A stretch of DNA of 64,000 nt from Novosphingobium sp. 9 (lineage in GTDB: Bacteria > Pseudomonadota > Alphaproteobacteria > Sphingomonadales > Sphingomonadaceae), in the NCBI RefSeq assembly GCF_025340265.1, contig NZ_CP022707.1:806501-870500 (forward strand), read 5' to 3'. How positions within the stretch are numbered: position 1 is the first letter of the stretch; each line of letters starts with the position of its first letter. Below are positions 782 through 15,789 of the stretch, piece by piece. The position numbers and the translations under genes are program-made. The notes under the pieces were generated by a model, which worked only from the letters and a program-made list of their open reading frames with translations, had not been told where the DNA came from and ran no database searches.

Positions 782-1207
782 TCAGGTCAGGGAAGGGGGG
801 AGAAGCCGCCAGCGGGACAGCACCGGCCACGGATCGGGCAGCGGGGTGACGACGACCTTGCGCAACCCGGCATGGGCATGGACGATGCGCTGCGGTGCGA
901 GCGCGATGGCGACATGCACTTGCGTAGGGGCGGGGCGCAGGATCAGCACGTCGCCGGGTTGGCGCGGTGCTTCGGCGGGCACGAAGCCCGAGGCATGCAT
1001 CCACGTCTCGACGTCGGGTTGCGTCAGCGAACGCAGCGGATAGCCGTTGGGGAGGTGCGGCGCGGCGCCGATCCCGCGCAGTGCCGCGTCGAGCAGGCCC
1101 ACGCAGTCCAGCCCGGTCTCGCGCGTCCGCCCATGCAGGCGAAAGCGGGTGCCTGCGAACGCCAGCGCCGCTTCGGCGAGTGCGTCTCCTGTCGTCGCGC
1201 CGCTCAC
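782..1207 (-). CDS. GTA gp14-like NlpC/P60 peptidase
   Basis: A 141-residue NlpC/P60-family cysteine peptidase, probably the tail-associated cell-wall hydrolase that lets the particle cross peptidoglycan. The catalytic Cys is C35 in 'TGLDCVGLLDAAL' and the His is H98 in 'TQVHVAIAL', the usual order for the family. The start is a GTG (1207-1205) whose GTGA overlaps the TGA of gp13, so the two are translationally coupled; the reading frame stays open further upstream inside gp13, but that part looks like shadow sequence. The position between gp13 and gp15 matches RcGTA. Confidence 0.9.
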   Translation of the reverse strand: MSGATTGDALAEAALAFAGTRFRLHGRTRETGLDCVGLLDAALRGIGAAPHLPNGYPLRSLTQPDVETWMHASGFVPAEAPRQPGDVLILRPAPTQVHVAIALAPQRIVHAHAGLRKVVVTPLPDPWPVLSRWRLLPPSLT

Positions 1208-2031
1208 GATGCGCCCGGCGAAGGATAGCGGGTGAGCAGGTCGTTGCCCGGAAGATAAGGTTCTGCGCGGAAGTTTATCGCGTTGCCGAAGCGACCGGCG
1301 CAAGTCTCCAGCGTGTGATCGCAGCCCTGCCGCAGCATCACGCGCGTGCCGATGGCGGGGGGCGGATCGACGGGTCGGTCGAGCACCAGCGCGCCCTGCG
1401 CCGTAGCCGCCACGATCATCGCGCTCTCGTCGCACTGCGCGCCATCGATCCAGCGCAAGGTGCCGCCGATATGCGTGCCGGTATCCGGGGCGGGGAAGAG
1501 TGTCACCGCGTTGGCTTCGGCATCGAAGGCTGCCAGCGTGCGCTCAGAGGTGAAGCGTACCGCGCCGAGATTGCAGCCCGGTCCGCAGAACGCAGCGCGG
1601 CAGGTCGGGCTGGTCCTTGGCACCAGATCGCGCTCCAGCTCGGCCTTGCGCGAGACGAGCTGGGCGGAGAACTGCCCGGCCTCTTCGGACACGGTGCCGA
1701 GCGACCCGGCATAGAGCAGTGCGCTCTCGCCGCTCTCCCAGTCGACCAGCCCGATCCGCACCTGTGCATCGTCGAAGCGCCCGGCGGCAAGGTCGGGAGA
1801 CGAGATCGAATCGTGGCTGAGCGCGCCTTCCACTTCGGCGCTGTCGTCCGAAAGGTCCGCCGACTTGCGGATTGAGGAGGGCACCATGCCGGGCGAGGCG
1901 CGGTGGAGTACGCCCTCCAGCCACAGGTCGCGGTCGTGCGTCGTGAAGCCCAGCGTCACCCCGTCGCGGCGCAGGATGCGAAGGTACGTGGCGGCGGTTT
2001 CGAGATCGCCGGAGAACCAGGTGCGGGTCAT
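1204..2031 (-). CDS. GTA gp13-like DUF2163 (BR0599-type) tail protein
   Basis: A 275-residue tail-tip protein of the DUF2163/phage BR0599 family. It begins MTRTWFSGDLETAATYLRIL and contains the family-typical 'TLGFTTHDRDLWLEGV' and the C-terminal Cys-rich region 'CRAAFCGPGCNLGAVRFT' plus 'QGCDHTLETCAGRFGNAINF'. Conserved cysteines there suggest a metal- or cluster-binding knob, as described for the RcGTA hub protein (family knowledge, not visible here). The ATG at 2031 overlaps the gp12 stop by 4 bases and its own stop overlaps gp14, so gp12-gp13-gp14 are tightly coupled. Confidence 0.9.
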   Translation of the reverse strand: MTRTWFSGDLETAATYLRILRRDGVTLGFTTHDRDLWLEGVLHRASPGMVPSSIRKSADLSDDSAEVEGALSHDSISSPDLAAGRFDDAQVRIGLVDWESGESALLYAGSLGTVSEEAGQFSAQLVSRKAELERDLVPRTSPTCRAAFCGPGCNLGAVRFTSERTLAAFDAEANAVTLFPAPDTGTHIGGTLRWIDGAQCDESAMIVAATAQGALVLDRPVDPPPAIGTRVMLRQGCDHTLETCAGRFGNAINFRAEPYLPGNDLLTRYPSPGAS

Positions 2032-4364
2032 GCGGCCTCCCGAATCTCGACGACGGGCACGCTCGGCGCCTCGCCTGCGGCAAAGGCCGCGCCGGAGACT
2101 TCGAGCTGGTCCTCGGCAAAGCGCACCGGCACGTCGAAAAGGAACCCGGCGCGCACGTCGAGACCGGAGGCAGGCGCGGCGTCGAAGCGGATCGTGCCGC
2201 CGTCGAGCAGGGTCCAGCCTTGCGTCTGCACGACACCGCCCACCGCGACCTGCACGGACGGCGCATCGGGCCGGGTCACGCGGCGCACCTGCTGCGCATC
2301 GCCCTCGCCATAGCGCTTCACCAGCGCGAAATCGGTGGCGAGGCCGTCTCCGGTGCCGAGCAGCTGGTCGCGCGCGCCGGGCACGCCGACCATCCCGGCC
2401 GAGCTGTAGTCGCTGGGATCGCGCAGGCGGAAACCGCGCGCCGAGCCGCGCCGCGCGCGGAAGAAGGCGATCAGCTCGCCCAGCTCCGCATCGGAGCGCA
2501 CGCCGGGGCCGACATCGAAGCGCAGCCGCGCGTTCGACCACAGAGAATTGCGTCGCTCGAAGCCCGAGGCGGTGATCGAGACGCTGGTCGAAAACTCCGG
2601 AATCACCGTGGCGTCGCGGCCCAGCGCGAGCGGGTAGAGCACATCGTCGAAGGCCTGCATGTCATCGTCTCCGCTGATAGTAGGCAAGCGCACGTATCCG
2701 TCGCGCGCGACCTGCGGCAGCGCCCAGATCACGATCTCGTGCGGGCTGCGCGCGAATGCCTCGTCGATCCCGGCATCGATCCGGCGCCACTGGTCGGCAT
2801 TGGCGGGATCGAGCACGAAGCCTGCCAGATAGTCCTGCTCCGTCGCCGGATAGCCGAGCCGCGCATCGACTTCGGCGTGTGCGGTGCGGCGGTGGCCATC
2901 GGCGCCTGTGGTCAGCCAGTCGTAGTCCTCGACCTGAAGGCGGTCGAAGGCCGGGGCGGCCCAGCCCAGCGGCAGGTTGGCGCGCTTCAGTTCGGGCATG
3001 TCGGGCGCGAGCAGCGTGGGCGTGAACACCAGCGCGAGCGCTTCGACCGGGGCAGGGGCCACGGCGGCGCGCACGGCGGAAACCAGCGCGGCGGTGGAAG
3101 CGGCGAGCATCGCGCCCGCCGCATCGAGCAGCGCGGTCTGTGCGGCGCTCAAGGGCGCGCGCATGTCGGGGATCGCCACCGGCGCGCCGCCGAACGCAGC
3201 CTTTGCGGCATCGTCGTAAAGGCAGATGCGCCCGGCCGCGAAAGTCCACCACCACGGCTCGCCGATCTGGAAGCGCACCGGCGCGCCCGCCTCGGCCATC
3301 AGCGTCGCGAAGGCCTCGGCCACACCGCGCAGCCACGCCATCGCCGCGCCGTTCGCGGGGGAAAGCAGGGTCGAGGGCGGTTCCCAGCCGGTCAGCGCCG
3401 GATTGCCGAGATGGTCGCGCTGTTGCCATGCGGGCGGGCAATGCTGCGCCAGCACTTCGTAGGAGAGCGAGGCCACCGGACTGAAGCCCATCGCCACCGC
3501 CTCGGAGAAGAAGGCGGCATGCCAGGCGCGGGTCGGGGTGTTCAGCACGTCCCCGGAAGCGCCGACAAGGAACGCGTCGTCGCTCGCGCCGAGCCCGAAG
3601 TAATGGCTCATTCCCACGTAGTGGACGATCGAGCCGCGATAGCCGAGCTGGCGGATCGCGCGCAGCAGCCGCGACGGCGTCTGCACGCCCTGATCGTCGA
3701 ACCCGGTGGCGATGGCGAGGCCGTGGGGCGGGATCATCACGTCGCCGATTTCCAGCATCGCCCGCGCCCCGTCGCAGCGGATCTGCGACAGTTCGATCCA
3801 GCCTTCGCGCGGCGCATCGAGCGCGGCGGTGCTCGCCCCGTCATAGCCCGGCGGCGCGAAGGAGATGAACATCCGGTCGATATCGCCCGCCCAGACCGGA
3901 TCGGCATCGGCGGGCAGCGAAAAGCCGCCGTCGAGGGCCGAGAAGTTCAGCGTGATCGTGGCGTCCTCGCCCGCTCCTTCGGCGTAGTTCCACAGCCGCA
4001 CGTACCAGGTCCGCGCCGCGCCGCTTTCGTTGCGTCCCTCGATGGTCAGCGTCGGGCCGTTCACGGCATCGAGCGGCACCACGCCGGAAGACCGCCAGCG
4101 CAACGACAGCGAGGTGTGGCGATAATCGCGGTCTGTCCTGTAGCCGAGTAGCGGGTGGTCGAGCGTGTCGGCGCTGTCCCAGATCAGCCCGCCAAGGTCG
4201 GCATGGCGCAGGAACGTCGCCTCGATCCGCAGCGCGTCGGGCGCGGTGGCGACGACGCTCGCCATCATCGGGCGGGGGAAGTTAACGGTCCAGAAGCGCG
4301 GATCGAAGCGCTCGATCCAGTCGCTGTCCTGTCCCTGTCGTTTGGAAGCGAGCCAGAAGGCCAT
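2028..4364 (-). CDS. GTA gp12-like DUF2460 tail protein with a long N-terminal extension
   Basis: A 778-residue protein. The C-terminal ~210 residues (from 'MQAFDDVLYPLALGRDATVIPEF') are a DUF2460/TIGR02217 domain, the gp12 distal-tail protein of RcGTA. The first ~550 residues are an extra region, rich in W/Y and alpha/beta in look, with segments such as 'GYRGSIVHYVGMSHYFG', 'SYEVLAQHCPPAW' and 'FQIGEPWWWTFAAGR' that resemble a glycosidase-like TIM barrel. RcGTA gp12 itself is only about 200 residues, so this is a fused or extended form; similar long forms are known to me from sphingomonad GTA clusters and tailed phages. The function of the extension (tail decoration or glycan contact) is inference. 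Confidence 0.85.
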   Translation of the reverse strand: MAFWLASKRQGQDSDWIERFDPRFWTVNFPRPMMASVVATAPDALRIEATFLRHADLGGLIWDSADTLDHPLLGYRTDRDYRHTSLSLRWRSSGVVPLDAVNGPTLTIEGRNESGAARTWYVRLWNYAEGAGEDATITLNFSALDGGFSLPADADPVWAGDIDRMFISFAPPGYDGASTAALDAPREGWIELSQIRCDGARAMLEIGDVMIPPHGLAIATGFDDQGVQTPSRLLRAIRQLGYRGSIVHYVGMSHYFGLGASDDAFLVGASGDVLNTPTRAWHAAFFSEAVAMGFSPVASLSYEVLAQHCPPAWQQRDHLGNPALTGWEPPSTLLSPANGAAMAWLRGVAEAFATLMAEAGAPVRFQIGEPWWWTFAAGRICLYDDAAKAAFGGAPVAIPDMRAPLSAAQTALLDAAGAMLAASTAALVSAVRAAVAPAPVEALALVFTPTLLAPDMPELKRANLPLGWAAPAFDRLQVEDYDWLTTGADGHRRTAHAEVDARLGYPATEQDYLAGFVLDPANADQWRRIDAGIDEAFARSPHEIVIWALPQVARDGYVRLPTISGDDDMQAFDDVLYPLALGRDATVIPEFSTSVSITASGFERRNSLWSNARLRFDVGPGVRSDAELGELIAFFRARRGSARGFRLRDPSDYSSAGMVGVPGARDQLLGTGDGLATDFALVKRYGEGDAQQVRRVTRPDAPSVQVAVGGVVQTQGWTLLDGGTIRFDAAPASGLDVRAGFLFDVPVRFAEDQLEVSGAAFAAGEAPSVPVVEIREAA

Positions 4365-4379
4365 TTCTGTTTCCCCCCC

Positions 4380-4958
4380 TCAGCGCTCGTTCAGCGCGCG
4401 GCGCACGGCGCTGGCGATCTGCCGCGAGGAGCGGCGCAGCGATTGCGGCACGCTGGCGCCGCGCGCGCCGGTCATGTTGATGGCGACGCTGACCGAACGC
4501 CCGCCGCTCGAACCGGACGCCCCGCTGTCGATGCGTCCGGCGGAGGTCGGCACGAACAGTTCCGGCCCGCGCTCGCCCACCACATAGGCGCTGCCCGGCG
4601 CGACATTGCCGCCGGTCGCGCGGCCCGGCAGGCCGAGCAGCGAGGTGACGAGCCCGCCAAGGCTGGCGCTGCCGGTGCCCGCCGATGTGCCGACACCGGC
4701 GCTGCCACCGACCAGCCCTTGCGCGGCGCTGGCGGCGATCTCGCCCAGCGCGTTCACCGCCACGCGCTTCAGGTCGTCGAAGCCGAGGCTGCCTTGTTTG
4801 ATCGCCGAGGCGAGGCTGGATTGCAGCGAGGAGCCCGCCCTGGTGAAGCCGCCGGTCAGGTCGCCGTCGATCTGCTTGCGCATGGCGGCGATGTCCTGCG
4901 CGAAGCCGTCGGTGGAGGCGCGCACGTCGATAATCAGGCTGTCGGCATCATCGGCCAT
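4380..4958 (-). CDS. GTA gp11-like short tail tape measure protein
   Basis: A 192-residue tape-measure protein that sets tail length and is ejected with the DNA. It begins MADDADSLIIDVRASTDGF, has an N-terminal helical part ('FAQDIAAMRKQIDGDLTGGF'), a Gly/Ser/Ala-rich hydrophobic middle ('ASAAQGLVGGSAG') and a basic C-terminus ('RRSSRQIASAVRRALNER'). The 'VVGERGPELFVP' motif at about residues 125-136 is common in tape measures. It is very short, in keeping with GTA gp11 (about 220 residues) and not with a full phage tape measure. Its ATG overlaps the end of gp10.1 by 11 bases. Confidence 0.85.
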   Translation of the reverse strand: MADDADSLIIDVRASTDGFAQDIAAMRKQIDGDLTGGFTRAGSSLQSSLASAIKQGSLGFDDLKRVAVNALGEIAASAAQGLVGGSAGVGTSAGTGSASLGGLVTSLLGLPGRATGGNVAPGSAYVVGERGPELFVPTSAGRIDSGASGSSGGRSVSVAINMTGARGASVPQSLRRSSRQIASAVRRALNER

Positions 4959-5157
4959 GGTCGTTGTCCATCATCTGGGTGAGAGTGTCGCGGTCGATCC
5001 CGGTACTGGCCGGAGTTCCGGCAGCGTCAGCGGTCAGGCCGAGGCAGTCGGCGAGTTCGGCGGGCGTGGCGCGCCAGAACTCGTCGGGGCGCCAGCCGAG
5101 CGTGCGGGCGGCCAGCGCGCAGAGCCGGGGCGCGGTCTCGGTAAAGGTCCGGCTCAC
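4948..5157 (-). CDS. GTA gp10.1-like tail assembly chaperone
   Basis: A 69-residue protein of the short phage tail assembly chaperone family (TIGR02216/PF09550 type), which loads the tape measure before tail-tube polymerisation. The core 'TLGWRPDEFWRATPAELADCLG' is the family signature. It overlaps gp10 upstream by 4 bases and gp11 downstream by 11 bases, the arrangement expected for a chaperone/tape-measure pair. Confidence 0.85.
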   Translation of the reverse strand: MSRTFTETAPRLCALAARTLGWRPDEFWRATPAELADCLGLTADAAGTPASTGIDRDTLTQMMDNDHGR

Positions 5158-5468
5158 GCGGTGCCCTTGACGATCTGGCCGAGCAGCACCCGCAAGGGCG
5201 CGATGCAGGCGGCCAGTCCGCCTTCGGCCACGGCTTCGCAGAACGCTTCGCGGCTGAAGGCAGCGCGGTCCGTCAGGCAGTGCCAGAACAGCGCGGCCAT
5301 CTCGGTCAGGCGCAAATCGCCGTCGCCCGCCCGCTCGACCAGCGCCAGCAGCGGGCCAAGCTCGGCCTCGGCAGCGACCAGCGCGGTGAAGCTGGGACGC
5401 AGGCGATGCGCCACACCGCCGAGCACCAGCGCCGTCTCACCGCGCAGGAGATTGGCCTCAAGGCTCAC
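5154..5468 (-). CDS. GTA gp10-like protein (GTA-gp10 family)
   Basis: A 104-residue protein of the GTA-gp10 family. The core is 'LVLGGVAHRLRPSFTALVAAEAELGPLLALVERAG' followed by a helical segment 'MAALFWHCLTDRAAFSREAF'. Family members lie between the major tail protein and the tail chaperone and act in tail assembly; the exact role is not clear. The start ATG overlaps the gp9 stop by 4 bases and the stop overlaps gp10.1 by 4 bases. Confidence 0.85.
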   Translation of the reverse strand: MSLEANLLRGETALVLGGVAHRLRPSFTALVAAEAELGPLLALVERAGDGDLRLTEMAALFWHCLTDRAAFSREAFCEAVAEGGLAACIAPLRVLLGQIVKGTA

Positions 5469-5872
5469 GCGGCGGCGACCGCGCCCGAGCTTTCCAGCTG
5501 GAGCGTGTAGTTGCGCTCGCCGTTGAAATCGCCCGCATAGTCGAGCCGCTGGACAAGGAAGCGTCCGCGCAGCTTCTCGCCGTCCTCGAAGCTCAGTTCG
5601 TAATCGTCGAGCGTGCCCGCCATGGCATTGGCGCGCACGCGGGCTTCGGCGGTGCTGCCGAGGAAAATGCCCGCCGCGCTGACCGAAACGGCGCGCACGC
5701 CCGCGCCCGAAAGCAGCTCGCGCCAGCCGCCCGAATCCTTGCTGGTGACGACCACCGCATCGCCCGTCACCGACATCTGCGTGGTGCGCAGGCCTGCGAC
5801 GGTCTGATAGGCGGCGGGGGTGGCGCCGTCGGAAATCTTGAGAAGGAAGGCGCTGCCTTTCTGGGCGGTCAT
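5465..5872 (-). CDS. GTA gp9-like major tail (tube) protein
   Basis: A 135-residue tail-tube protein (TIGR02126/gp9 type; RcGTA gp9 is about 137 residues). It begins MTAQKGSAFLLKISDG and carries the family-typical 'TVAGLRTTQMSVTGDAVVVTSKDSGGWRELLSGAGVR' region and the C-terminal beta strands 'DGEKLRGRFLVQRLDYAGDFNGERNYTLQLESSG'. The reading frame stays open upstream but the family start is the ATG at 5872, preceded by AGGAGACTTCCC on the minus strand, a good ribosome binding site. Confidence 0.92.
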   Translation of the reverse strand: MTAQKGSAFLLKISDGATPAAYQTVAGLRTTQMSVTGDAVVVTSKDSGGWRELLSGAGVRAVSVSAAGIFLGSTAEARVRANAMAGTLDDYELSFEDGEKLRGRFLVQRLDYAGDFNGERNYTLQLESSGAVAAA

Positions 5873-5915
5873 GGGAAGTCTCCTCGAAATGGCGGGGAAA
5901 GTTGAACAGGCGAAA

Positions 5916-6305
5916 TCAGGCGGCGAGCAGGCGGAAGCGGTATTCGAGCAGGATCGCACGGCGGCTTTCGCCACGCTGTTCGGCACGGGCGCGCAGGAAG
6001 GTGGTGGAGGCGATCGAGAAGGCGTCCTGCTGGCGCGGCAAGCTCTCGATCCGCTCTTCCAGCGCGGCGACGAGATCGGCAGCGGCATCGGGGGCATCGC
6101 CCCGGCACTGCAGTTCGAGCGCGACGCGCACCTCGCGACCTTTCGCGGTCTTGCAGCTCCAGTCAGCGCTGGAACTGGCCGAAATGGCGATCCACGGCAG
6201 GCTGGTGCGGCCGGGCGCTTCCTCGGTCAGGGCGTTGAGTTCGCCCGCCAGAGTGGGATCGCCGGCCAGCCAGTCGAGCAGGGCGGCGCGCAGGGGCACT
6301 TCCAT
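5916..6305 (-). CDS. GTA gp8-like tail completion protein (DUF3168)
   Basis: A 129-residue DUF3168 protein, the gp8 tail-terminator/completion protein that joins tail to head. It begins MEVPLRAALLDWLAGDPTLAG and ends with 'RAILLEYRFRLLAA', both typical for the family. The ATG at 6305 is chosen because it starts the domain; the open frame continues upstream only as shadow of gp6/gp7. It lies 23 bases after the gp7-position gene. Confidence 0.88.
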   Translation of the reverse strand: MEVPLRAALLDWLAGDPTLAGELNALTEEAPGRTSLPWIAISASSSADWSCKTAKGREVRVALELQCRGDAPDAAADLVAALEERIESLPRQQDAFSIASTTFLRARAEQRGESRRAILLEYRFRLLAA

Positions 6306-6328
6306 GGCGTATCCTTTCGTCGGTAGGG

Positions 6329-6502
6329 TCAGCGTGGCGCGGTGGGCCAGAGCAGGTCGGCGCGGCGCCAGCGGCTTTCGTCGCCTGCGCGTTCCAGCGC
6401 CCGCGTCTGCGCGGCAGCCTCGGCGAGCGCGGCGGCCTTGTCGGTGAGGTGCCGGGCGAACGCGTCGAAATCGGTTCTGGCGGTAAGCGCAGACCCGCTC
6501 AT
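6329..6502 (-). CDS. Small protein in the gp7 position of the GTA cluster
   Basis: A 57-residue protein (MSGSALTARTDFDAFARHLT..., ending LLWPTAPR). It is largely helical and Ala/Arg-rich ('DKAAALAEAAAQTRALERAG'). It overlaps the gp6 stop by 4 bases, which supports real translation. I recognise no domain; the location between gp6 and gp8 suggests a shortened head-tail joining protein in the place of RcGTA gp7. Confidence 0.65.
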   Translation of the reverse strand: MSGSALTARTDFDAFARHLTDKAAALAEAAAQTRALERAGDESRWRRADLLWPTAPR

Positions 6503-7050
6503 GCCAGCCGCATCCGCCTCCAGGGGCGCCACAGCGCAGCCACCGAGGCGGGCGGCAGTGGCGCGGCGCCTCCGTTCTCGCGCTCGCGGTGCTGGTGCGC
6601 GGCGAGGCGGATGAGGCCGTGGCGCAGGCCATCGGGCAGCATGTCCCAGCTGGCGGTGAGCCCGGCGGTGAAGCGGACCGCCAGCTGCGTCGCATTCGCG
6701 CTTGCCAGCAGGCGCACGCAGCCGGTGCCGTCGGTGTCGAGGTCTGCCTCCCACGCGGCGGAAGACAGCGCGGTGCGGGTGCCGTCCGCGGCGATCGCCT
6801 CGATCGCGGTGATCGCCTGCACGGGCCGCGTCGCCAGACGCTGCCAGCGCCCGGACCATGCGGGGAGGCGTTCCTCGCAACCGGCCTCCAGCGGCATCGT
6901 GCCGGTGAAGCCCTCGCAGACATCGAGGCTGGCGTCGAGCAGGTCGCCCAGCACGGCATCGTCGTGCGCGGTGGTGATGCCCAGCCATTGCTTAAGCTCG
7001 GCGAGCGCCGTGCCCGGCAGCGTCGCGGGCGAGAGGATGACGCGGTTCAT
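6499..7050 (-). CDS. GTA gp6-like head-tail connector
   Basis: A 183-residue head-tail connector of the phage adaptor type. The N-terminus 'LAELKQWLGITTAHDDAVLGDLLDASLDVCEGFTG' is the classic helical motif of this family (helix, then DD.L..LL..A...CE.FTG). A beta-rich middle ('VQAITAIEAIAADG') and a C-terminal 'LPDGLRHGLIRLAAHQHRERE' helix follow. It comes 163 bases after the capsid gene, with a hairpin between them. Confidence 0.88.
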   Translation of the reverse strand: MNRVILSPATLPGTALAELKQWLGITTAHDDAVLGDLLDASLDVCEGFTGTMPLEAGCEERLPAWSGRWQRLATRPVQAITAIEAIAADGTRTALSSAAWEADLDTDGTGCVRLLASANATQLAVRFTAGLTASWDMLPDGLRHGLIRLAAHQHRERENGGAAPLPPASVAALWRPWRRMRLA

Positions 7051-7213: not shown

Positions 7214-8356
7214 TCAGGCTGCGATGCGCAGCAGCTTGATCGCGTCCGAATCGAGCACCTGCCCGCCGATGCGCTTGGTCGCGTAGAAGTGGACGAAGGG
7301 CTTGTTGGTGAAGGGATCGCGCAGGATCGCGGTGGCCGAGCGTTCGGCGATCAGATAGCCCGCGCGGAAGTTGCCGAAGGCGACCGGGAAGCTGCCCGCC
7401 GCGACATCGGGCATGTCCTCGGCCTCGACCACCGGATAGCCCAGCAGGCGGTTGGGCTGGCCTTCCATCAGGCCCGGCTGCCACAGGAACGAGCCGTCCG
7501 CCGCCTTCAGCTTGCGCACCACCGCCAGCGTTGCCGAGTTCATCACCCAGCTTGCGCCCTGCCGGTGCCCGGCCTTGAGCGAGTGGACGAGGTCGATCAG
7601 CTTCAGTTCGGGCGAAGTGTCGAAGCCTGCCGCATCGCCGGACTTGAGGTATTGCAGCTTGCCGAAGGCGCGCACTGTGTCTGCCTCGCTGGTGGCTTCG
7701 GCGGCGAGGAAGCCCTTGGGCTGGTTGATGCCGGTGCCGTTGATGAAGGCGCCGCCTTCGGCACGGGCGAACTCCATGGCGATCTCGTCCGCCAGCCACG
7801 ACTGAATATCGAACCCGGCATCGTCGAGCATCGCCTGGCTGGCCGCCGGATTGGCGTAGAGTTCACCGGTCGGCGGGGCGATTTCGGCGAAGCTGGGCGT
7901 GGCGGTCTCGGCGCGGGTGGCGACTTCGCTGACCCAGCCGGATGCGGTGCCGCCGGTGGTGATAAGCTTGCGATAGCCCGCCGTGCCGGTCTGCACGACT
8001 TGCGCGATGGAGCGGATCGGGCTGATGTTCTTGAGGCGGCTGGCGATCAGCGCGTCGATCTCGCGCGGCACGGCATAGCCGCCATCGGCAGCGATAGCGC
8101 CGGAGATCGACTTCAGTTCGGTCTCGCGGCCACGGCGCAGATAGCCCTCGACGAAGCCTTTGACTTCGAGGCTGGGCGGGGCCGAGGCGGCGCCTTCGAT
8201 CATCGGGCGGGCGGCGGCGCGGCTGACGCGGTCGAGCCGGGCCTTCACGTCCTCGACATCGGTGCGCAGCGCCGTGACTGCGGCATCGGTGGCGTCCTGG
8301 CGGGCGACGAGGTCGAACGAGGAGTCGAGGGCCTCGACCGGGGGCGTGATTTCCAT
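7214..8356 (-). CDS. GTA gp5-like HK97-family major capsid protein
   Basis: A 380-residue HK97-fold major capsid protein. A helical scaffold-like N-terminus (about residues 15-55, 'ALRTDVEDVKARLDRVSRAA') is followed by the mature shell part from about residue 80 ('SISGAIAADGGYAVPREIDALI'). Family segments include 'GFDIQSWLADEIAMEFARAEGGAFINGTGINQPKGFL' and 'FGNFRAGYLIAERSATAILRDPFTNKPFVHFYATKRIGGQV'. The gp4 protease is expected to remove the N-terminal part. It is the best-conserved gene of the cluster. Confidence 0.95.
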   Translation of the reverse strand: MEITPPVEALDSSFDLVARQDATDAAVTALRTDVEDVKARLDRVSRAAARPMIEGAASAPPSLEVKGFVEGYLRRGRETELKSISGAIAADGGYAVPREIDALIASRLKNISPIRSIAQVVQTGTAGYRKLITTGGTASGWVSEVATRAETATPSFAEIAPPTGELYANPAASQAMLDDAGFDIQSWLADEIAMEFARAEGGAFINGTGINQPKGFLAAEATSEADTVRAFGKLQYLKSGDAAGFDTSPELKLIDLVHSLKAGHRQGASWVMNSATLAVVRKLKAADGSFLWQPGLMEGQPNRLLGYPVVEAEDMPDVAAGSFPVAFGNFRAGYLIAERSATAILRDPFTNKPFVHFYATKRIGGQVLDSDAIKLLRIAA

Positions 8357-8438: not shown

Positions 8439-8858
8439 TCAGGAGACCAGATGCACCCGTGCGCCGTGCTGCATCGGGTGGGTGACGAGGCTCACCTCGA
8501 ACAGCTCCAGATCGAGCAGTTCGCGCCCTTCGGCATTGTGGCGGCTGGAGCGGGCGCGGTAGCCGAACGACAGGCCGCTCACTGTCCCGCGCCGCAGCGC
8601 AAGGCCCGCCGCGCCTTCCGGGTTGTCGATCATGGCGACCACACGCAGGCCGCGCGCGTCTTCGGCCAGCCGCTCGACCCAGCCGATGCGCAGGTCCGGG
8701 CGGTGCTGCCAGAACAGCGGCACCGGGGCCTGTCCTTCGTGTTCGGCGATGGTGCGGGCGAAAGCGCCGGGACGAATGGTGTCGCGCCCGGCATCGCGGC
8801 GGTCGAACAGCGCGGCGTAACCCGCAAAGCGCAAGGGGCCGGAGGCAGCGGCGGTCAT
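8439..8858 (-). CDS. GTA gp4-like HK97 prohead protease
   Basis: A 139-residue S78-family prohead protease that matures the capsid. Likely catalytic residues are H52 ('LFWQHRPDLRIG') and S97 ('GTVSGLSFGYRA'), in the expected spacing, and the 'LELFEVSLVTHPM' motif closes the domain. It is shorter than many phage forms but complete for a GTA protease. Its ATG overlaps the upstream gene's stop by 4 bases. Confidence 0.92.
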   Translation of the reverse strand: MTAAASGPLRFAGYAALFDRRDAGRDTIRPGAFARTIAEHEGQAPVPLFWQHRPDLRIGWVERLAEDARGLRVVAMIDNPEGAAGLALRRGTVSGLSFGYRARSSRHNAEGRELLDLELFEVSLVTHPMQHGARVHLVS

Positions 8859-9163
8859 CGGATGATCTCCGCCACGCCGAAGCGATAGGCGAGGCCGAGC
8901 AGCAGCAGCGCCAGCACCGCACGCACGGCCCAGCCGACCACCGCCTGCGTCGCGCTGGCCTTCGCATCGCGCCAGGCCTGCAGCAACTCGCGCAGTTCGG
9001 AGAGATCGCCGATGGCGGTCTCGTCATCGAGGCCGAGGCGGGAAAGCATGCGCTGCGAACCCAGTTCGCTCGCTTCCTCGACGATGGCGCGCAGGGTCAC
9101 GAGGTCGGACCCGGAGGCACGGGCCTGCGCCAGAAGCCCGGCCAGCATCTCACCATTGTTCAT
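8855..9163 (-). CDS. Small membrane protein of the GTA cluster (DUF6127-like)
   Basis: A 102-residue protein with a helical soluble N-terminus ('LAGLLAQARASGSDLVTLRAIVEEASELGSQRMLSRLGL') and one C-terminal transmembrane helix (about residues 79-96, 'AVRAVLALLLLGLAYRFGV'). It matches the DUF6127 family as I know it, found between portal and protease in sphingomonad GTA clusters; RcGTA has no well-known counterpart. It overlaps portal upstream and protease downstream by 4 bases each. The function is unknown; the membrane helix could serve particle assembly or release. Confidence 0.7.
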   Translation of the reverse strand: MNNGEMLAGLLAQARASGSDLVTLRAIVEEASELGSQRMLSRLGLDDETAIGDLSELRELLQAWRDAKASATQAVVGWAVRAVLALLLLGLAYRFGVAEIIR

Positions 9164-10353
9164 GAAATGTTCTCCTTGCTGCGGGTCTCAAGCGGCTCGA
9201 TGCGATCTGGCTCGATGCGTTCGGGCAGGCCCAGCAGCGCGCGCTTTTCGGATGGGTCGAGGAAGTCGGCATCGCTGACCTGCGACCACAGCTTCTCGCG
9301 GTCCTCCGCCAGCGCGGGCACCCGGTCGAGATCGACGGCGAGCGCGGCTTCGGGGAACCACGGGGCCAGCCCCTCGCCAAGGGCGGCGAAGATCTTGGCG
9401 GCCATCGGCAGCAACGTCAGGCGCCAGAGCGCGCGGTTGGCCTCGCGGTAGTTCGCATAGGTCGAATCTCCGGGCAGGCCGAGCAGCATCGGCGGCACGC
9501 CGAAAGCCAGCGCGATGTCGCGCGCGGCGGCGGCCTTCAGCGTCGCGAAGTCCATGTCTGCGGGCGTCATCGCCATCGCCTGCCAGGTGAGGCCGCCTTC
9601 CAGCAGCATCGGCCGCCCGGCATTCCCGGCACCGGCGAAGGCGTGGGTCAGTTCGGCCTTGAGCCGGTCGAACTGGTCGGGGGTCAGGCTGTTGCCGTCC
9701 TCGTTGCGGTAGACCAGCGCGCCCGAGGGCCGCGCGGCGTTCTCCAGCAGCTGGCGGTTCCATTCTGCGGCAGCGTTGTGCGTGGCGATTGCCTGATCGG
9801 CGGCGGCAAGGCATCCCGCGCCATAGTGATCGTCCGCCGGGTGGAAGTGGCGGATGTGGATCACGTTGGGCGCGGCGTCCTCGTCCAGCGCCGGGATCGC
9901 GATCTGCTGCCCGCCCACGGTATAGGCGAAGGCGCTGGGCCAGCCGTCCTCGTCGGGGACGATGGCGATCCGCTCGGGCCGCAGCGCGAACAGCTCGACC
10001 GGGCGCCCGCGCGCGTCCTTCATCACCTGCACATAGGCATTGCCGTGCAGCAGCAGGTGCGCCGCCAGCGTTTCGAGCAGCGCCTGTCCCGCGCTGGTGG
10101 CGGTGACGAGTGCGGTCAGCGCGGGATCGCCCTGCCGCAACGGCGCGCCGCCAAGCCCTTCGGCCACCAGGCGCACCGCGCGCTGGGCGACCGGGTTATG
10201 GAGATAGGCGTGATGGATCGCGGTGCGATAGTCGAAGGCCGGGCGCCCCGGCGCTTCGGCGCAGGCATACCAAGGAATGCTGGGCGCACGCGACAGCGGA
10301 GGACGTTCTGTCGCGCCCTTGAAGGCGGCGAGGATGGAGTCAAGGAAAGGCAT
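9160..10353 (-). CDS. GTA gp3-like portal protein
   Basis: A 397-residue HK97-type (SPP1-fold) portal protein, the dodecameric DNA gate of the head. The start ATG at 10353 opens 'MPFLDSILAAFKGATERPP'; the frame stays open upstream but that part is non-homologous shadow. Family segments include 'NPVAQRAVRLVAEGLGGAPL', 'LLLHGNAYVQVMKDARGRPVELFALRPERI' and 'AFGVPPMLLGLPGDSTYANYREANRALWRLTLLPM'. Next upstream on the same strand is the unusual 1083-codon gene and not terminase, as RcGTA would have it. Confidence 0.93.
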   Translation of the reverse strand: MPFLDSILAAFKGATERPPLSRAPSIPWYACAEAPGRPAFDYRTAIHHAYLHNPVAQRAVRLVAEGLGGAPLRQGDPALTALVTATSAGQALLETLAAHLLLHGNAYVQVMKDARGRPVELFALRPERIAIVPDEDGWPSAFAYTVGGQQIAIPALDEDAAPNVIHIRHFHPADDHYGAGCLAAADQAIATHNAAAEWNRQLLENAARPSGALVYRNEDGNSLTPDQFDRLKAELTHAFAGAGNAGRPMLLEGGLTWQAMAMTPADMDFATLKAAAARDIALAFGVPPMLLGLPGDSTYANYREANRALWRLTLLPMAAKIFAALGEGLAPWFPEAALAVDLDRVPALAEDREKLWSQVSDADFLDPSEKRALLGLPERIEPDRIEPLETRSKENIS

Positions 10354-10409
10354 GGGACTCCTTTCGGAAGCAGTGGGAGGAGAGCGATCGGTTCGGGCCG
10401 TCGTACCGG

Positions 10410-13400
10410 TCAGGCCGTCACATCGATGAGGATCGTCTCGTTCAGTGCGGTGCGCAGGAGGAACACATCGTTCAGGCCGGTCAGGGCCTTGGCGACGCTC
10501 AGGTTGCCCGCCGCATCGAGCGCGAAGTAACCGCGCCGGTGGCCGCCCTGCAGCACGTCGAAGCCGGTCGCCTTGATGCCCGTCGCGATCACCGTGCCGA
10601 CGGCTGTTGCGGCAGGCACCGTCGATCCGCCGACTGTCGCCGTTGCGATGAAGTCGGCGGGGCGAAAGTACGGTGTCAGCAGATCGCTCTCGATCAGCGC
10701 CAGCCACGGGCGATGCCGGTTTCGTGCAGTGTCGATGACGGCATTGAAATCCACACCGACAAGCTGTCCGGCGTGTGCAGAAACCTGAAAGCGCCATGGA
10801 TCGCTCAGCAAAGGCAATTCCGAGATAGGATCCCAGAACGCAGGGGCCACCAGATTACGGGCCTGGGGGTCTGTTGCGTGCGTGAACGTCCCGCCCTTGA
10901 CGGTCGATGCCGGAAGGCGGTTGATCGTGCCGGTTGCCGTGGCGCCGCTGGCGATGTTCTGCCCGGTTGCCGAAGTGGTGGCGATCCAGGCGTTGTCGAA
11001 CACGGCCACGGCATTGGCCCCCTGGGCGGTGACGAAGCATGATCCACCGCTACCATTGATGTCGCGGAAGGACTGCGCACCCTGGACGATCAGGCTGTTC
11101 CGGAGTGCGAGCTGCGCTCCGGCATATTTCGGGTATTCCAACCGCAGGGGGTTATTCGTGGCCAGAACGAACAGGGACTTGCTGGTTTCCCAATCGCCGA
11201 AGTCCGCCCCATTAGCGGCGCCGCTGGAACTCCCCTGCAGGAACGGTCCCTGACCTTCGTTGCACAGGAACACGCCTTCCTCGCGCCAGCCATACATCGA
11301 CACCGCGCCCGCATTGGGCTGGAAGTTGTCGGCGTGTGTTCCGGTGTTGGAAGCGGCAGGCGCATTAGGCGTGGAGACGTATCCAGCGCCGGATGAGGGC
11401 CAGTAGCCATAGTCGTAGTACAGGCGAACGGCGATGCCATCGCCCTCCACGACGTAGACCTCGTTCTGAAGCGGATAGGAGGTCCAGCACGATCCGTCTT
11501 GGTTGATATGCTCCTGCTGCGCCGCGTGCCACTGGTATCCGGCCTTGTCGTACAGCGAGGTATCGCCGCGTTCCCAGTATCGCACGATGTGGTGCTTGTC
11601 GGCGTTGATCTTGCTGGCGTCGAGCGTTCCTGCGGTGAAATCGTAGGTGCCAACCATCGTTGCTGGCCGGCCGTGCGGCAATTGGTCGACCGTGAGGCCC
11701 GATGCCGAAAAGGCGACCCACCCGTTGCCGTCATAGCGATTTACCTCGAACTCCTTGCGGCTCTGCCACAGGTTGAGAGCGGGATAGCAGGTGAAGCGGC
11801 CACCGAAGCGGCGGTGGCCCGTGCCATTCAGGAACAGTCCAGAGCCAACATTGATGCCATCCGACCAGATGAGATCGTACCCCACGTCGTTGACGTTGAG
11901 GTTGATCTTGCTGCCGGTGGTGTTCCCCTGCGAGGATACAGTTGCAAAGGGCGCCAAAAAGCGTGCCATTCGCGTTCCGAAAGAGCCCGCGAAGCTGACG
12001 GAGGATCCGGCATTGCTCGGGCCGCCTGCGGATACCGTGACGATAGGTTGCCCGGCCCACACGCACCTCTCGTCCGTCTGATCGTTCTGGAGATATTTGC
12101 GCGAACGGCTGTTACCCAGATGAGCGCCTGCAAACAGGCATCTGGTCATGGCGATGTCGTTGCTCGCCTGCACAGCTATGGACCGGTATGCCGCCACCCC
12201 GATGCCCACCTGTTGCCAGAGGCCGGGAGACGTATCGGTGAGGGATGCGACAATGATCCCATCCATGTCGTAGCTGCCGGTCAGAACGCTGGTCAGGCGC
12301 TGGGTGATCGGGAGAAATTCCTTCCGCTTCTGGAACACTGAACGGACTTGCTGGCTGACCGCCAGTTTGCCGGTGCCGTACGTGCCGATGGGATGCGGAA
12401 AGCGAGACGGACCAAGCACCAGTGCATGAAGCGTCGGGGTCTTGAACGGGGTGAAATAGAGCGCTTCGTTGCCGTTGTGCAGGATGCCGGAGCGATCAGC
12501 CGTCTCGGTGCTCTGGACGACGCGGATATCCTTCTCGATCGGCAGGTAGGGCAGGCCGATGGTGATGGCGGGCGCGGTGATCTGGCCGCCCGGTGCCTGC
12601 GAACGCGCCGCCGCGATATGCGGCATGATGTAACCGACCTGCTGCATAATCCCGGTGTTGATGGTGTCCGCTGCAAACGTCTTGTTGGCGGCGCAGACCG
12701 GCACGGCAGCGGGGGCCGAGGTCGGATTGCGCTGCACCATCATCTCGCAGATGTGGACTTTCCTGCCGGTGTCGAGTGTTCCGGTCATCAAGAACACCGG
12801 ATAATACAGCGACCCAGCGGCATTCACATAGGTATCAACCCAAAGGTACGTCCAGCGTTTGCCATTGAGCATCCCGAGGTCGTAATAGCCGCAGCGCCGC
12901 GTACCCCATGCCTCGGTGAAGCCGGTGATCGCGCCTGCGGCGTCGTGCGAGTACGTGGCTGCGTCAAAAGCACTGGCCGCCGTTCTGCTGCCGAATGCTA
13001 TTGTATTTGCGCCTACTGATCCGGGCGCGATGGCGACGATGGCATGCGTGCGGATGATGTCGGCGACCGACGCTGCCGTTCCGGTGACGGCATTTGGAGC
13101 GGACAGCTGCCCGCTGTTGACAGTGCCCTGCGTCCATACAGCGCCCTTGCCGGTCGTGCCGAAGATATCGGCCTCGGTATGGCTGCCCGCATAAGCGATC
13201 GTATCGCTGGCCTGCGACTTGACGAGATAAGCCGGATCGGTGGCCGCATGCGGCGCAGCCGTGTCGTGCCACGGTGCCGAGCGATAGGTGTCCGCAGGTT
13301 GCAGCATCGCGCCGAGGAACTGGCCCGAGCTGTTATAGCACAGGCGTTCCTCGTTGGCCGCGCAGATGGCGAACCCCGATGCGGTCAGGCGCCAGCGCCC

Positions 13401-13661
13401 GGCAGTGGACGAAAACGTCATCACCTTGGGTGCGGCGATTCCGGCCTCCAGCGACAGCAGATTCGCGCGGATGAGCGAGCCGACCGTGGCGGAGATCTGT
13501 GCGACGGCACCCGTCAGGGCCGAGGCGGCATTGGTTGCGGTCACGGCGGAACCGGCCGCAGCGGTTGCCGAGGCCAGGGCGGTCACGGCGTTTGTCCGCG
13601 CCGCTTCCGCGCTGCTGGTGGTGCGGGCGGCAAGGCCGCGGGCGATCAGGTCGATGCTCAT
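10410..13661 (-). CDS. Large uncharacterised protein inserted in the GTA cluster (possible tail fibre/spike)
   Basis: A 1083-residue protein that I do not recognise. The N-terminus 'MSIDLIARGLAARTTSSAEAARTNAVT' is followed by an Ala/Thr/Ser-rich heptad-like stretch (residues 8-70), as in trimeric phage tail fibres. The rest is Gly/Asn/Ser/aromatic-rich, beta-like and has no signal peptide. The C-terminus 'FALDAAGNLSVAKALTGLNDVFLLRTALNETILIDVTA' looks like a small beta domain. It lies 48 bases after terminase and 56 bases before portal on the same strand, so it is co-transcribed, but this position is not occupied in RcGTA. Its G+C is clearly lower (about 55 % in 12061-12120 against about 72 % in 9361-9420 of portal), a sign of transfer from elsewhere. 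Host contact or adhesion is inference. Confidence 0.75.
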   Translation of the reverse strand: MSIDLIARGLAARTTSSAEAARTNAVTALASATAAAGSAVTATNAASALTGAVAQISATVGSLIRANLLSLEAGIAAPKVMTFSSTAGRWRLTASGFAICAANEERLCYNSSGQFLGAMLQPADTYRSAPWHDTAAPHAATDPAYLVKSQASDTIAYAGSHTEADIFGTTGKGAVWTQGTVNSGQLSAPNAVTGTAASVADIIRTHAIVAIAPGSVGANTIAFGSRTAASAFDAATYSHDAAGAITGFTEAWGTRRCGYYDLGMLNGKRWTYLWVDTYVNAAGSLYYPVFLMTGTLDTGRKVHICEMMVQRNPTSAPAAVPVCAANKTFAADTINTGIMQQVGYIMPHIAAARSQAPGGQITAPAITIGLPYLPIEKDIRVVQSTETADRSGILHNGNEALYFTPFKTPTLHALVLGPSRFPHPIGTYGTGKLAVSQQVRSVFQKRKEFLPITQRLTSVLTGSYDMDGIIVASLTDTSPGLWQQVGIGVAAYRSIAVQASNDIAMTRCLFAGAHLGNSRSRKYLQNDQTDERCVWAGQPIVTVSAGGPSNAGSSVSFAGSFGTRMARFLAPFATVSSQGNTTGSKINLNVNDVGYDLIWSDGINVGSGLFLNGTGHRRFGGRFTCYPALNLWQSRKEFEVNRYDGNGWVAFSASGLTVDQLPHGRPATMVGTYDFTAGTLDASKINADKHHIVRYWERGDTSLYDKAGYQWHAAQQEHINQDGSCWTSYPLQNEVYVVEGDGIAVRLYYDYGYWPSSGAGYVSTPNAPAASNTGTHADNFQPNAGAVSMYGWREEGVFLCNEGQGPFLQGSSSGAANGADFGDWETSKSLFVLATNNPLRLEYPKYAGAQLALRNSLIVQGAQSFRDINGSGGSCFVTAQGANAVAVFDNAWIATTSATGQNIASGATATGTINRLPASTVKGGTFTHATDPQARNLVAPAFWDPISELPLLSDPWRFQVSAHAGQLVGVDFNAVIDTARNRHRPWLALIESDLLTPYFRPADFIATATVGGSTVPAATAVGTVIATGIKATGFDVLQGGHRRGYFALDAAGNLSVAKALTGLNDVFLLRTALNETILIDVTA

Positions 13662-13709
13662 GTCTGGCGGTGCCTCGTGAAAAGGGGAAAAGGGACAAAG
13701 CGGGCAGGA

Positions 13710-15038
13710 TCAGGTCATACGGACGCGCGGGGTGGCGGCAGTGCCGAGCATCAGGTCGCTGAGCGCCCAGACCAGCGCGTCGGCGCGGTCGGGGGAGCGG
13801 GTGGGGCCTTCATAGGTGCCACCGGCCATCAGCCCGCACATTTCGTCTTCCAGCGCGGGGAAGTATCCGGCGTGGAACACGCGGCCCGCCTCGTAGAGCG
13901 CGGCGACGGGTTCGGCGCGGGCCACTTTGCCGCGGCTGGCGTGGACCAGCTTCAGGGGCAGCGAAATATCGGCGGCGCGCAGGACCGAGGCGACCATCGC
14001 GCCGCCCTGGTTGGCTTCTGCGACGACGCGATCGGCCTGCCAGGCCTGCGCCGCACCGGCGGCGGCGCGCGCCCAGCGTTCCGGGCTGGCCTTCTCCACC
14101 GAGGCATCGGCCAGCACATGCGCGCTGCCGCTGGCATCGAGGCCGACCACCACGATCCCGCAGGCATCGCCCCCCGCCGAGGCAGGGGGATCGACGCCGA
14201 CGATCACCCGGACGCATTCCGGGCCTGCGCCTTCACGGCACTGTTCGAGCAGCGCGCGGCTCCACAGCGCGCCTTCGGCCTCGGCCAGCATCTCGCCTTC
14301 CAGTTCCTGCCGCCCGAGCTGGCTGGTGCCGAACAGGCGGCGCATCGCGTCCAGAAAGCGCGTCGGCAGATTGGCACGGTTGTCCCAGGTGGTGCCGCGC
14401 GTGACGATGACTTCGGCACCGTCCTCGCTCGCCAGCAGGCGGGTCAGCAGCGGCACGGCACGCGGCGTGGTCGTCGCCAGAACCTGCGGGCGTTCGCCAA
14501 GGCGCAGGCCCATCATCAGGTTGTCCCAGGCCGAGGTGGCGCGGGCGGCGGCATTGTCCCACTTGGCGATCTCGTCGCACCAGGCGTGGCTGTGCTGGGG
14601 GCCGCGCAGCGATTCGGGCTCGGCGGCGGAATAGAGCATGGCTTGCGCGCCGCTCGGCCATGTCAGCCGCCGCAGCGAGGATTCGTAGAGCGGGCGCTGT
14701 TCGCGCGGGCCGACCGACAGCAGCCCGCTCTCGCCTTCCACCATCACCGCGCGCACTTCGCCAAGGCTCGCGCCGACAAGGGCGATGCGCGCCGCAGGAT
14801 CGCTCTCGGCGATCTGGCGGACCCATTCGGCGCCGCTGCGGGTCTTGCCGAAGCCGCGCCCGGCCATGATCAGCCACAGCCGCCAGTCGCCCGCCGGGGC
14901 CAGTTGCGCGGGGCGTGCCCACAGCTTCCAGTGCCAGCGCCAGGCGCGCTGTTCGGCGCGCGAGAACGAGGCGACAAGCGCGTCGATCTCGGTCGCCTCG
15001 GCCCCGGCCATCCAGTCGAGCGGGTCTGCCTCAGCCAT
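13710..15038 (-). CDS. GTA gp2-like large terminase
   Basis: A 442-residue packaging motor. The Walker A variant is 'GRGFGKT' at 60-66, Walker B with catalytic Glu is 'HAWCDEIAKW' (D155, E156), and the coupling motif is 'QVLATTTPRA' (about 185-194). The RNase H-like nuclease has its first Asp in 'VIVGVDPPASAGG' (D283) and the last in 'SPDRADALVWAL'. The ATG at 15038 is chosen over the longer open frame because it starts the domain and overlaps the gp1 stop by 8 bases. In GTAs the motor packs random host DNA by a headful mechanism (family knowledge). Confidence 0.95.
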   Translation of the reverse strand: MAEADPLDWMAGAEATEIDALVASFSRAEQRAWRWHWKLWARPAQLAPAGDWRLWLIMAGRGFGKTRSGAEWVRQIAESDPAARIALVGASLGEVRAVMVEGESGLLSVGPREQRPLYESSLRRLTWPSGAQAMLYSAAEPESLRGPQHSHAWCDEIAKWDNAAARATSAWDNLMMGLRLGERPQVLATTTPRAVPLLTRLLASEDGAEVIVTRGTTWDNRANLPTRFLDAMRRLFGTSQLGRQELEGEMLAEAEGALWSRALLEQCREGAGPECVRVIVGVDPPASAGGDACGIVVVGLDASGSAHVLADASVEKASPERWARAAAGAAQAWQADRVVAEANQGGAMVASVLRAADISLPLKLVHASRGKVARAEPVAALYEAGRVFHAGYFPALEDEMCGLMAGGTYEGPTRSPDRADALVWALSDLMLGTAATPRVRMT

Positions 15039-15573
15039 CTGCGGGATCTCCGTCCGGGTTCGCGGCGGCAAGGCGACGGGCCTCCACCTGCAGGCGCAGA
15101 TGCTCCAGCTTGGCATCGATCGAGGCGCGCACGGCGGCGACATCCTCGTCCTCGCGCAGGGCGCGTTCGCGCGCTACGGTCTCGCGGTGCAGGCCGAGCA
15201 GGCGCAGCGCGGCGGCGTTGTCGAAGCGCACGGCATCGTCCTTGCCCTCACCGAAGCGCAGGCGCTGGAGCACTTCCATTTCGAGGTTCTCGTAGCCTTC
15301 GAGCAACGCGGCATACCACAGGCGGGCGAATTCGGGCTCCTCGCGGCGGACCTTGTAGGGGCGGCTGGGGGGGACTGCCGCCGCAGCAGCCGCCGCCGTG
15401 ACGTTCGAGGTTTCGGCCAGCGCGGCCAGAAACACGCCGCGCCAGTGCGCGTTAGGCTTGGCGTTGTCTGCCGCCGCAGCATCGTCGGTGGAGGTCTCGA
15501 CCTTGGGGGCAGGGGTCTTCGTCTTGCGGCGACGCGCGGCGCCACCGGGCGAAGCCGGGTTCGGCTTTTCCAT
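15031..15573 (-). CDS. GTA gp1-like small terminase / DNA-binding protein
   Basis: A 180-residue protein, first gene of the cluster. A basic, disordered N-terminus ('ARRRKTKTPAPK') leads to a helix-turn-helix-like segment 'HWRGVFLAALAETSNVTAAAAAAAVPPSRPYKVRREEPEFARLWYAAL', in which a terminase small-subunit type DNA-binding fold can be seen, then a charged helical C-terminus. The start ATG at 15573 follows a purine-rich AGGA on the minus strand; the frame stays open about 30 codons further but without a better ribosome binding site. Confidence 0.8.
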   Translation of the reverse strand: MEKPNPASPGGAARRRKTKTPAPKVETSTDDAAAADNAKPNAHWRGVFLAALAETSNVTAAAAAAAVPPSRPYKVRREEPEFARLWYAALLEGYENLEMEVLQRLRFGEGKDDAVRFDNAAALRLLGLHRETVARERALREDEDVAAVRASIDAKLEHLRLQVEARRLAAANPDGDPADG

Positions 15574-15672
15574 GGGGTATCCTGCATTGCGAAAAAGGGG
15601 ACGAAACGAAGGGAGCGAGTTTCGGAAGAGGCCGCGACCCGATTCGGGCAGAGTGAGCGGCAATGTTTCTGT

Positions 15673-15701
15673 TATGTACCAATATGAATGTCTGATGTCA
15701 A
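15673..15701 (-). promoter_or_regulatory. Sigma70-type promoter for the GTA cluster
   Basis: On the minus strand TTGACA (complement of 15696-15701) is followed by a 17-base spacer and TACATA (complement of 15673-15678). The -35 box is perfect. Transcription would start near 15666 and give a leader of about 90 bases before the gp1-like ATG at 15573. The AT-rich stretch stands out in this GC-rich genome. Confidence 0.65.
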
Positions 15702-15789
15702 GTTGAAATAACCAAAACGGTTCGCTTGGTGCGATCCCTTGTTAGCCGGATCATTCCCCTCTAGGCACGGCGCCGGGATTTCTTGCGGG

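Follow-up and report, generated by a model that had tools for sequence, protein, structure and literature searches.

The 64,000-nucleotide stretch of the Novosphingobium sp. 9 genome analyzed here (contig NZ_CP022707.1, positions 806,501 to 870,500; hereafter the window, in whose own numbering coordinates are given) contains a gene cluster that is assigned, by gene content and order, to the RcGTA-type gene transfer agents (GTA); between its genes for the large terminase (TerL) and the portal lies an inserted fibre/spike-type gene, P0001 (10410..13661, minus strand; recognized from its open reading frame (ORF) and its homologues). Judged from these homologues, the 1083-residue P0001 protein is, with a probability of roughly 0.58, a phage-type, polysaccharide-directed receptor-binding fibre or tailspike, and it probably sits in a tolerant slot of the cluster and serves the particle. 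For the acquisition of such a fibre-type insert by a GTA cluster, no published report was found in a literature coverage that omits most subscription journals.

Homologues among the prophage fibres of the same strain

Used as a single sequence, P0001 retrieved one additional match in its own genome. The matching gene belongs to a prophage of the second contig (L003) and lies behind a J-type tail-tip gene, to which 59 phage records correspond, several of them annotated as host specificity protein J. A profile built from P0001 residues 55–420 and the piece from this J-type prophage recovered four members in the own genome and none in the 194 other genomes of the genus; two of the four are the profile's own rows (the GTA and J copies), and the fibre genes of a Mu-like and a P2-like prophage were newly found. 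P0001 is thus no orphan, and the designation as an unknown gene in the original prediction was overturned by these family-level profile searches, which found relatives in the own genome and at one outside locus (L101, see below). All three prophage homologues are encoded among tail-tip or baseplate genes: the Mu-like fibre gene (L088:9308-13075) lies among the baseplate genes GpP, GP46 and Gp48, the P2-like one (L089:8231-11479) among P2 capsid, GPO and Baseplate_J genes.

The body of the Mu-like fibre shares 27% identity with P0001 over 658 residues (E 3e-26), and the two J-type pieces match with E values of 3e-20 and 5e-13. Similarity to the prophage fibres is found in stretches within residues 31–665 of P0001, for the Mu-like and J-type proteins also in residues 764–1081; over all relatives, its onset lies between residues 31 and 80, depending on the partner. 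A C-terminal domain (AVGTVIATGI...ALTGL) is common to the Mu-like fibre, the J-type fibre and the L101 protein. According to the alignments, residues 81–420 (12402..13421, minus strand) are the best conserved part of the body (about 30% identity with the prophage fibres; with the L101 protein, identity in 50-residue segments reaches 58%), followed by the remaining body of residues 421–1083 (10413..12401, minus strand). Since P0001 shows 24–30% identity to the prophage fibres and these share 57–98% among themselves, the GTA gene was not recently copied from them.

The Mu-like and J-type fibre bodies are 97–98% identical at the protein and 95% at the DNA level, their N-termini differ before residue 115 and 51, respectively, and the P2-like fibre is 57–84% identical to stretches of both. 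A conserved body combined with an exchangeable N-terminal part, as is expected of tail fibres, is thus present in this family: one body is used with different ends, and its near-unchanged state implies that it moved between unrelated phages of one host. As judged from the alignments, a distant version of this prophage fibre body stands in the GTA cluster, and the shared body with unlike N-termini is the kind of build seen in receptor-binding spikes and fibres. Besides, the J-type fibre gene is split over two frames and the tape-measure gene of this prophage looks split too (L003:7534-11108 and 1021-3401); the similarity of the P2-like fibre (L089:8231-11479) stops short of the C-terminus. Both the split and the P2-like end may reflect decay, phase variation or assembly error.

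A relative behind a GTA-type spike base

A scan of genome_contigs with a four-row profile yielded a single locus, L101 (CANKZR010000002.1, uncultured Sphingomonadaceae), encoding a protein of 1032 residues with 38% identity to P0001 over 1019 residues (P0001 residues 80–1082; E 7e-172) and an unlike N-terminus. The gene just before it, overlapping by 1 base, matches NF048002 (“spike base protein, RCAP_Rcc01079 family”; E 6e-26). The idea of a fibre-type protein, already put forward in the original prediction, is therefore backed by homology to three prophage fibre genes and to a gene behind a member of the GTA spike-base family. L101 is an exopolysaccharide locus, with genes nearby for a Wzz/BY-kinase, a hexapeptide transferase, two glycosyltransferases, a sulfotransferase, a Wzx-type protein and a Wzy_C-type protein (the last just under the cut-off); in the genome that carries it (G556), there is also a GTA capsid gene with 72% identity to that of Novosphingobium sp. 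9.

The comparison with L101 also bears on the coding status of P0001: identity extends to 381 of 961 aligned residues, and the two genes match at codon positions 1, 2 and 3 with frequencies of 0.52, 0.61 and 0.39 (shuffled codons: 0.26–0.34). This is the pattern of a selected protein and not that of a chance ORF; by this codon-level evidence, the P0001 protein sequence has been preserved.

Of 118 genomes, 12 have a match to the spike-base family NF048002 above its cut-off (13 at E 0.001), every one of them in the genus, and the neighborhoods of nine of the 13 places were read. In seven (L119–L125) the neighbors resemble, by eye, genes of glycan synthesis, and a large gene comes after the base gene, except for L120 with two smaller genes instead; the remaining two (L126 and L127) have the appearance of prophages. 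Several types of follower occur: those of L122, L123 and L125 are 75–93% identical to each other, those of L119 and L121 35%, and none of those compared (L119–L126) resembles P0001.

The single P0001 sequence found no relative in 196 other genomes, phages, plasmids, genome_contigs and viral_contigs, the 196-genome search being insensitive as it missed the L003 prophage match in the own genome (3 of 11 candidates scored). No relative was found in viral_contigs with the profiles A1, A4 and A5, and none in phages searched with three relatives or in plasmids searched with one. A P0001+L101 profile run against 396 genomes of the order returned both sequences again and one chance match: the latter (G534, E 6e-5) was rejected, being a 1029-residue ORF that looks by eye like a TonB-dependent receptor and adjoins peptide-transport genes. 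With at most two candidates scored per genome in the rows shown, this search missed the three prophage copies, so that it is not sensitive and only weakly suggests an absence of the P0001 family from the wider order; the profile of residues 55–420, which found all four known members, is the sole absence search that carries weight, and this for the genus.

N-terminal segment and domain content

The protein begins MSIDLIARGLAARTTSS. Its first 80 residues (13422..13661, minus strand) are Ala-rich, probably helical, not shared with the relatives, and constitute the putative attachment segment; the Ala/Thr/Ser-rich composition reported earlier was confirmed, with 31% Ala and much Ser and Thr. No credible match to residues 1–80 was found in the own genome (three rows, E 0.09–0.73) or in phages, and the first 60 residues gave six rows besides the own one in the 118 genomes, none of them credible (E 0.027–0.034); the weak rows of both genome searches were taken as an effect of the Ala-rich composition. 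A scan of viral_contigs for an N-terminal motif was dropped, as its 18 loci had the motif in unrelated or very short frames. The helices predicted for residues 16–75 are the least poor part of a low-confidence structure model (pLDDT about 55).

That the protein lacks a recognized domain, as stated originally, holds for Pfam, PHROGs, NCBIfam and PDB sequences, in none of which a match to P0001 was found; a P0001+L101 profile gave one unrelated row (E 0.4).

Position, composition and the TerL-portal interval

Zero internal stops interrupt the 1083 codons of P0001 from its ATG start, and TerL and portal are encoded on the same minus strand. The gene is separated by 48 bases from TerL (13710..15143) and by 56 bases from the portal gene (start 10353), which leaves the neighbors undisturbed, in agreement with the original description of an intact same-strand insert. 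The 48-base spacer between TerL stop and P0001 start (13662..13709, minus strand) is devoid of a terminator-like site; the 56-base spacer between P0001 stop and portal start (10354..10409, minus strand) carries a ribosome-binding-like motif, GAAAGGA, that by eye is also present upstream of the portal gene in many of the relatives examined. P0001 thus sits between the TerL stop and the GAAAGGA motif preceding the portal start. At its borders only short imperfect repeats were present, none of which could be called a target-site duplication. The lower G+C content ascribed to the insert was confirmed: P0001 has 63.3% (0.77 at third codon positions, GC3), and TerL, portal, capsid and gp12 have 68–72% (GC3 0.86–0.88).

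The original prediction proposed a survey of this interval in other sphingomonad clusters. TerL-portal distances, which run between the matched stretches and not between gene ends, were determined in the 82 genomes with both matches on one contig and strand. The TerL sample comprised 83 of 96 matched genomes, leaving out ten with pieces of less than 200 residues as well as G038, G053 and G119 (without portal match); the portal sample comprised 82 of 84, leaving out G004 (weak) and G062 (other contig). In Novosphingobium sp. 9 the distance amounts to 3359 bases, the longest of all 82 (next: 2335 bases), as compared with 27–899 bases in 48 further genomes of the genus. This excludes, for the genus, a GTA protein that is inherited vertically and occupies this place in every case, as no other of the 82 gaps is long enough and the profile detected the gene in 1 of 195 genomes. 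For comparison, the portal-capsid distance was analyzed in 64 genomes with both matches on one contig (split matches in G017 and G020 and pairs on different contigs left out): it spans 756–1075 bases in the genus (43 genomes, own included) and 662–16189 bases in the other families of the order (21 genomes). Because the portal-capsid distance is even more variable in these families, the variability of the TerL-portal slot is claimed for the genus, and the notion of a special insertion hotspot beyond it was dropped.

The contents of 20 intervals were read. Within the genus, G056 contains a HicA gene (Pfam, 46 bits) with a putative HicB upstream that is without Pfam match, G054 an opposite-strand gene with an Abi_2 match below the Pfam cut-off, and G052 and G055 short opposite-strand ORFs (the Abi_2-like gene lies at L066:1495-2517, the HicA gene with its putative HicB at L067:1041-1600). 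Six genomes of other families (L064:2923-3387, L065:2064-2555, L073–L076) have an opposite-strand small-protein gene in this place, whose product of 115–163 residues looks secreted and similar across the genomes by eye. No ORF was judged a gene in the other intervals read. In consequence, the suspected variability of the slot is borne out in the genus: it is mostly short in the relatives, its length varies and it sometimes holds unrelated genes.

The same observations fit an alternative, namely that P0001 is a phage fibre gene parked by recombination at a TerL-portal junction that tolerates inserts, with no role in the particle: the HicA/HicB, Abi_2-like and opposite-strand ORFs of the relatives are without evident particle role, and the gene occurs in only one of the 195 genomes of the genus. 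But P0001 lies on the same strand with short spacers, the ribosome-binding-like motif has been kept before the portal gene, and the frame is full-length; furthermore, the protein type fits a particle locus, a fit that would be a coincidence for a random passenger. A mere passenger is therefore regarded as unlikely.

Comparison with the spikes and fibres of RcGTA

In RcGTA, the capsule-binding fibre Rcc01080 is carried by capsid-borne pentamers of Rcc01079, and the capsule genes rcc01081-86 take the locus numbers next to the head-spike genes (PMC7296036, PMC10218006). P0001 would resemble this head spike fibre GhsB (Rcc01080) in its proposed capsule recognition, and the L101 relative occupies the corresponding gene place behind a base. 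It differs in its size of 1083 residues and in its start, which lacks the N-terminal Ile/Leu-Gly repeat peptide described for GhsB (PMC7296036). A position directly behind a spike-base gene is found for the L101 relative but not for P0001, which is preceded by TerL. As no spike base exceeds the cut-off in the own genome, the data for this strain do not support a GhsB-type head spike; the function of P0001 may be similar to that of a head spike, but the protein shows neither the gene position nor the N-terminal peptide of GhsB.

The second RcGTA protein of relevance is TspA (Rcc02623), according to a preprint a biofilm-degrading tailspike that increases transfer under anaerobic conditions (PMC13420450). 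The likeness lies in the proposed role on matrix polysaccharide and in being a large spike added to a GTA. TspA is set apart from P0001 by domains that reach no further than residue 763, by a gene location next to lysS and by its description as a feature of Rhodobacterales (PMC13420450). P0001 could accordingly be envisaged as a TspA-like, loosely held or soluble depolymerase that is freed at lysis and opens the matrix around recipient cells. The nearest P0001 relative is encoded in an exopolysaccharide locus, and the preprint describes TspA as missing from GTA-encoding species outside Rhodobacterales, which leaves room for a stand-in (PMC13420450); no enzymatic domain was recognized in P0001, however, and the helical N-terminus favors a shaft or an anchor. 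Such a released enzyme is quite improbable, and a particle-bound fibre or tailspike is preferred. The tail fibre of RcGTA likewise starts with a helical rod (PMC7296036).

With the DUF2793 tail fibre, P0001 would have in common that it is a fibre of GTAs (PMC10883770), but a DUF2793 match (Pfam) is lacking. The Mu-like, P2-like and J-type prophage fibres of the own genome share a body 25–30% identical to that of P0001 and differ in their N-termini; the L101 protein has 38% identity and the same length class, but its gene adjoins a spike base instead of lying between TerL and portal.

The host cluster

TerL, portal, the DUF6127 gene, prohead protease, HK97-type capsid and connector were named by Pfam and NCBIfam. 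On the minus strand, the genes comprise TerL (g2, 13710..15143; Pfam Terminase_6N/6C), portal (g3, 9160..10353; PF04860, TIGR01537), a DUF6127 gene (8855..9163; Pfam), prohead protease (g4, 8439..8858; Pfam, NCBIfam), major capsid protein (g5, 7214..8356; Pfam, NCBIfam) and the remaining head-tail genes in the window (782..7050): connector, tail tube, GTA-gp10, a 192-residue ORF, an NCTSP-DUF2460 fusion, hub and an NlpC/P60-type gene. The downstream genes were assigned by Pfam as tail-tube, gp10-, gp12-, gp13-, gp14- and gp15-type genes and a DUF2793 fibre gene; the NlpC/P60-type gene is just under the Pfam cut-off, and the 192-residue ORF, without Pfam match, was taken as gp11/tape-measure-type by position only. 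The gp12-type gene (2028-4364) encodes the N-domain of a non-contractile tail sheath protein plus a TIM barrel fused to DUF2460, and the gp15-type protein (L090:5798-7270; Phage-tail_3) has only 490 residues. The insert aside, the cluster follows the order g2-g3-g4-g5 and then tail and baseplate genes.

The consensus scan, a weak test, detected zero promoter-like sites in 8800–15800 and zero terminator-like sites at either border of P0001 (the number of terminator-like sites equals that expected by chance). If P0001 were expressed by the host outside GTA production, as a moron or decoy that, e.g., blocks or masks a receptor against phages of the same fibre family, the three prophages of the own genome would provide targets for such a ligand; its same-strand operon position and the lack of promoter- and terminator-like sites in this weak scan argue against it, and this reading is very improbable. 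The overall interpretation of the original prediction is thus sustained in part: the acquired insert in a GTA-type cluster, the variable slot and the fibre type stood, and the moron alternative it had kept open lost some ground.

The cluster is flanked by host genes (Pfam: at one end OTCase, Hsp33 and QueC, at the opposite end a racemase and an aminotransferase), and reading the ORFs between these flanks by eye revealed no recognizable integrase or replication genes. At E 1e-20, TerL, portal and capsid have matches in 96, 84 and 79 of 118 genomes, respectively, own included. Ten of the 96 TerL matches are pieces under 200 residues (G004, G009, G016, G019, G024, G034, G042, G059, G068 and G069, all of the same genus) that end near residue 180–193; they may derive from decayed clusters or represent other terminases, and some genomes may hence hold remnants only. 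Capsid, portal and terminase families are common to phages, but the host flanks, the lacking integrase and replication genes, the wide occurrence of the matches and the RcGTA-like clusters that Sphingomonadales are known to hold (PMC6821227, PMC9836097) have already largely refuted an ordinary prophage with P0001 as its own fibre gene in an odd place. By gene content and order, the cluster is thus of RcGTA type.

Proposed function and implications

Several points weigh against P0001 as a particle-borne receptor-binding protein. The N-terminus matches no known anchor, and the spike base NF048002 remains below the cut-off in the own genome (best 16.7 bits versus 28; the search could overlook a divergent base). 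The family-library searches recognized neither an enzyme domain nor a sugar-binding one, and the predicted structures are unusable (AlphaFold, mean pLDDT 30 for P0001 alone and 25 with one relative), so that a beta-helix or depolymerase fold is a guess. The cluster already encodes a DUF2793 fibre at its end (L090:4617-5075), no other insert in the 20 intervals read looks structural, and the slightly foreign codon use of P0001 means that the gene may be too recent for integration.

In the proposed scenario, P0001 would have been acquired horizontally from a pool of phage and spike genes adapted to the surface polysaccharide of the lineage; it would be co-transcribed with TerL and portal during GTA production, its helical N-terminus would attach the protein to the particle, and its body would bind, perhaps degrade, the capsule or exopolysaccharide of recipient cells. 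A more general proposal, which is tentative and held to be possible rather than probable, is that sphingomonad GTAs renew their recognition by taking spike or fibre bodies from the pool of host phages, with the TerL-portal junction as the loading place for targeting parts.

If the proposed function holds true, one family of polysaccharide-recognizing bodies would serve three unrelated phages and a GTA in a single strain; in L101, a body of this family together with a GTA-type spike base inside an exopolysaccharide locus would mean that the key travels with the lock. The GhsA-type bases with varied spike genes inside glycan loci of several genomes point in the same direction: spike parts and their targets may be co-inherited. 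According to the prevailing view, GTAs are inherited vertically and adapted to their own species; the gain of a fibre gene by the cluster of one strain would demonstrate that horizontal transfer can alter the recognition parts of a GTA.

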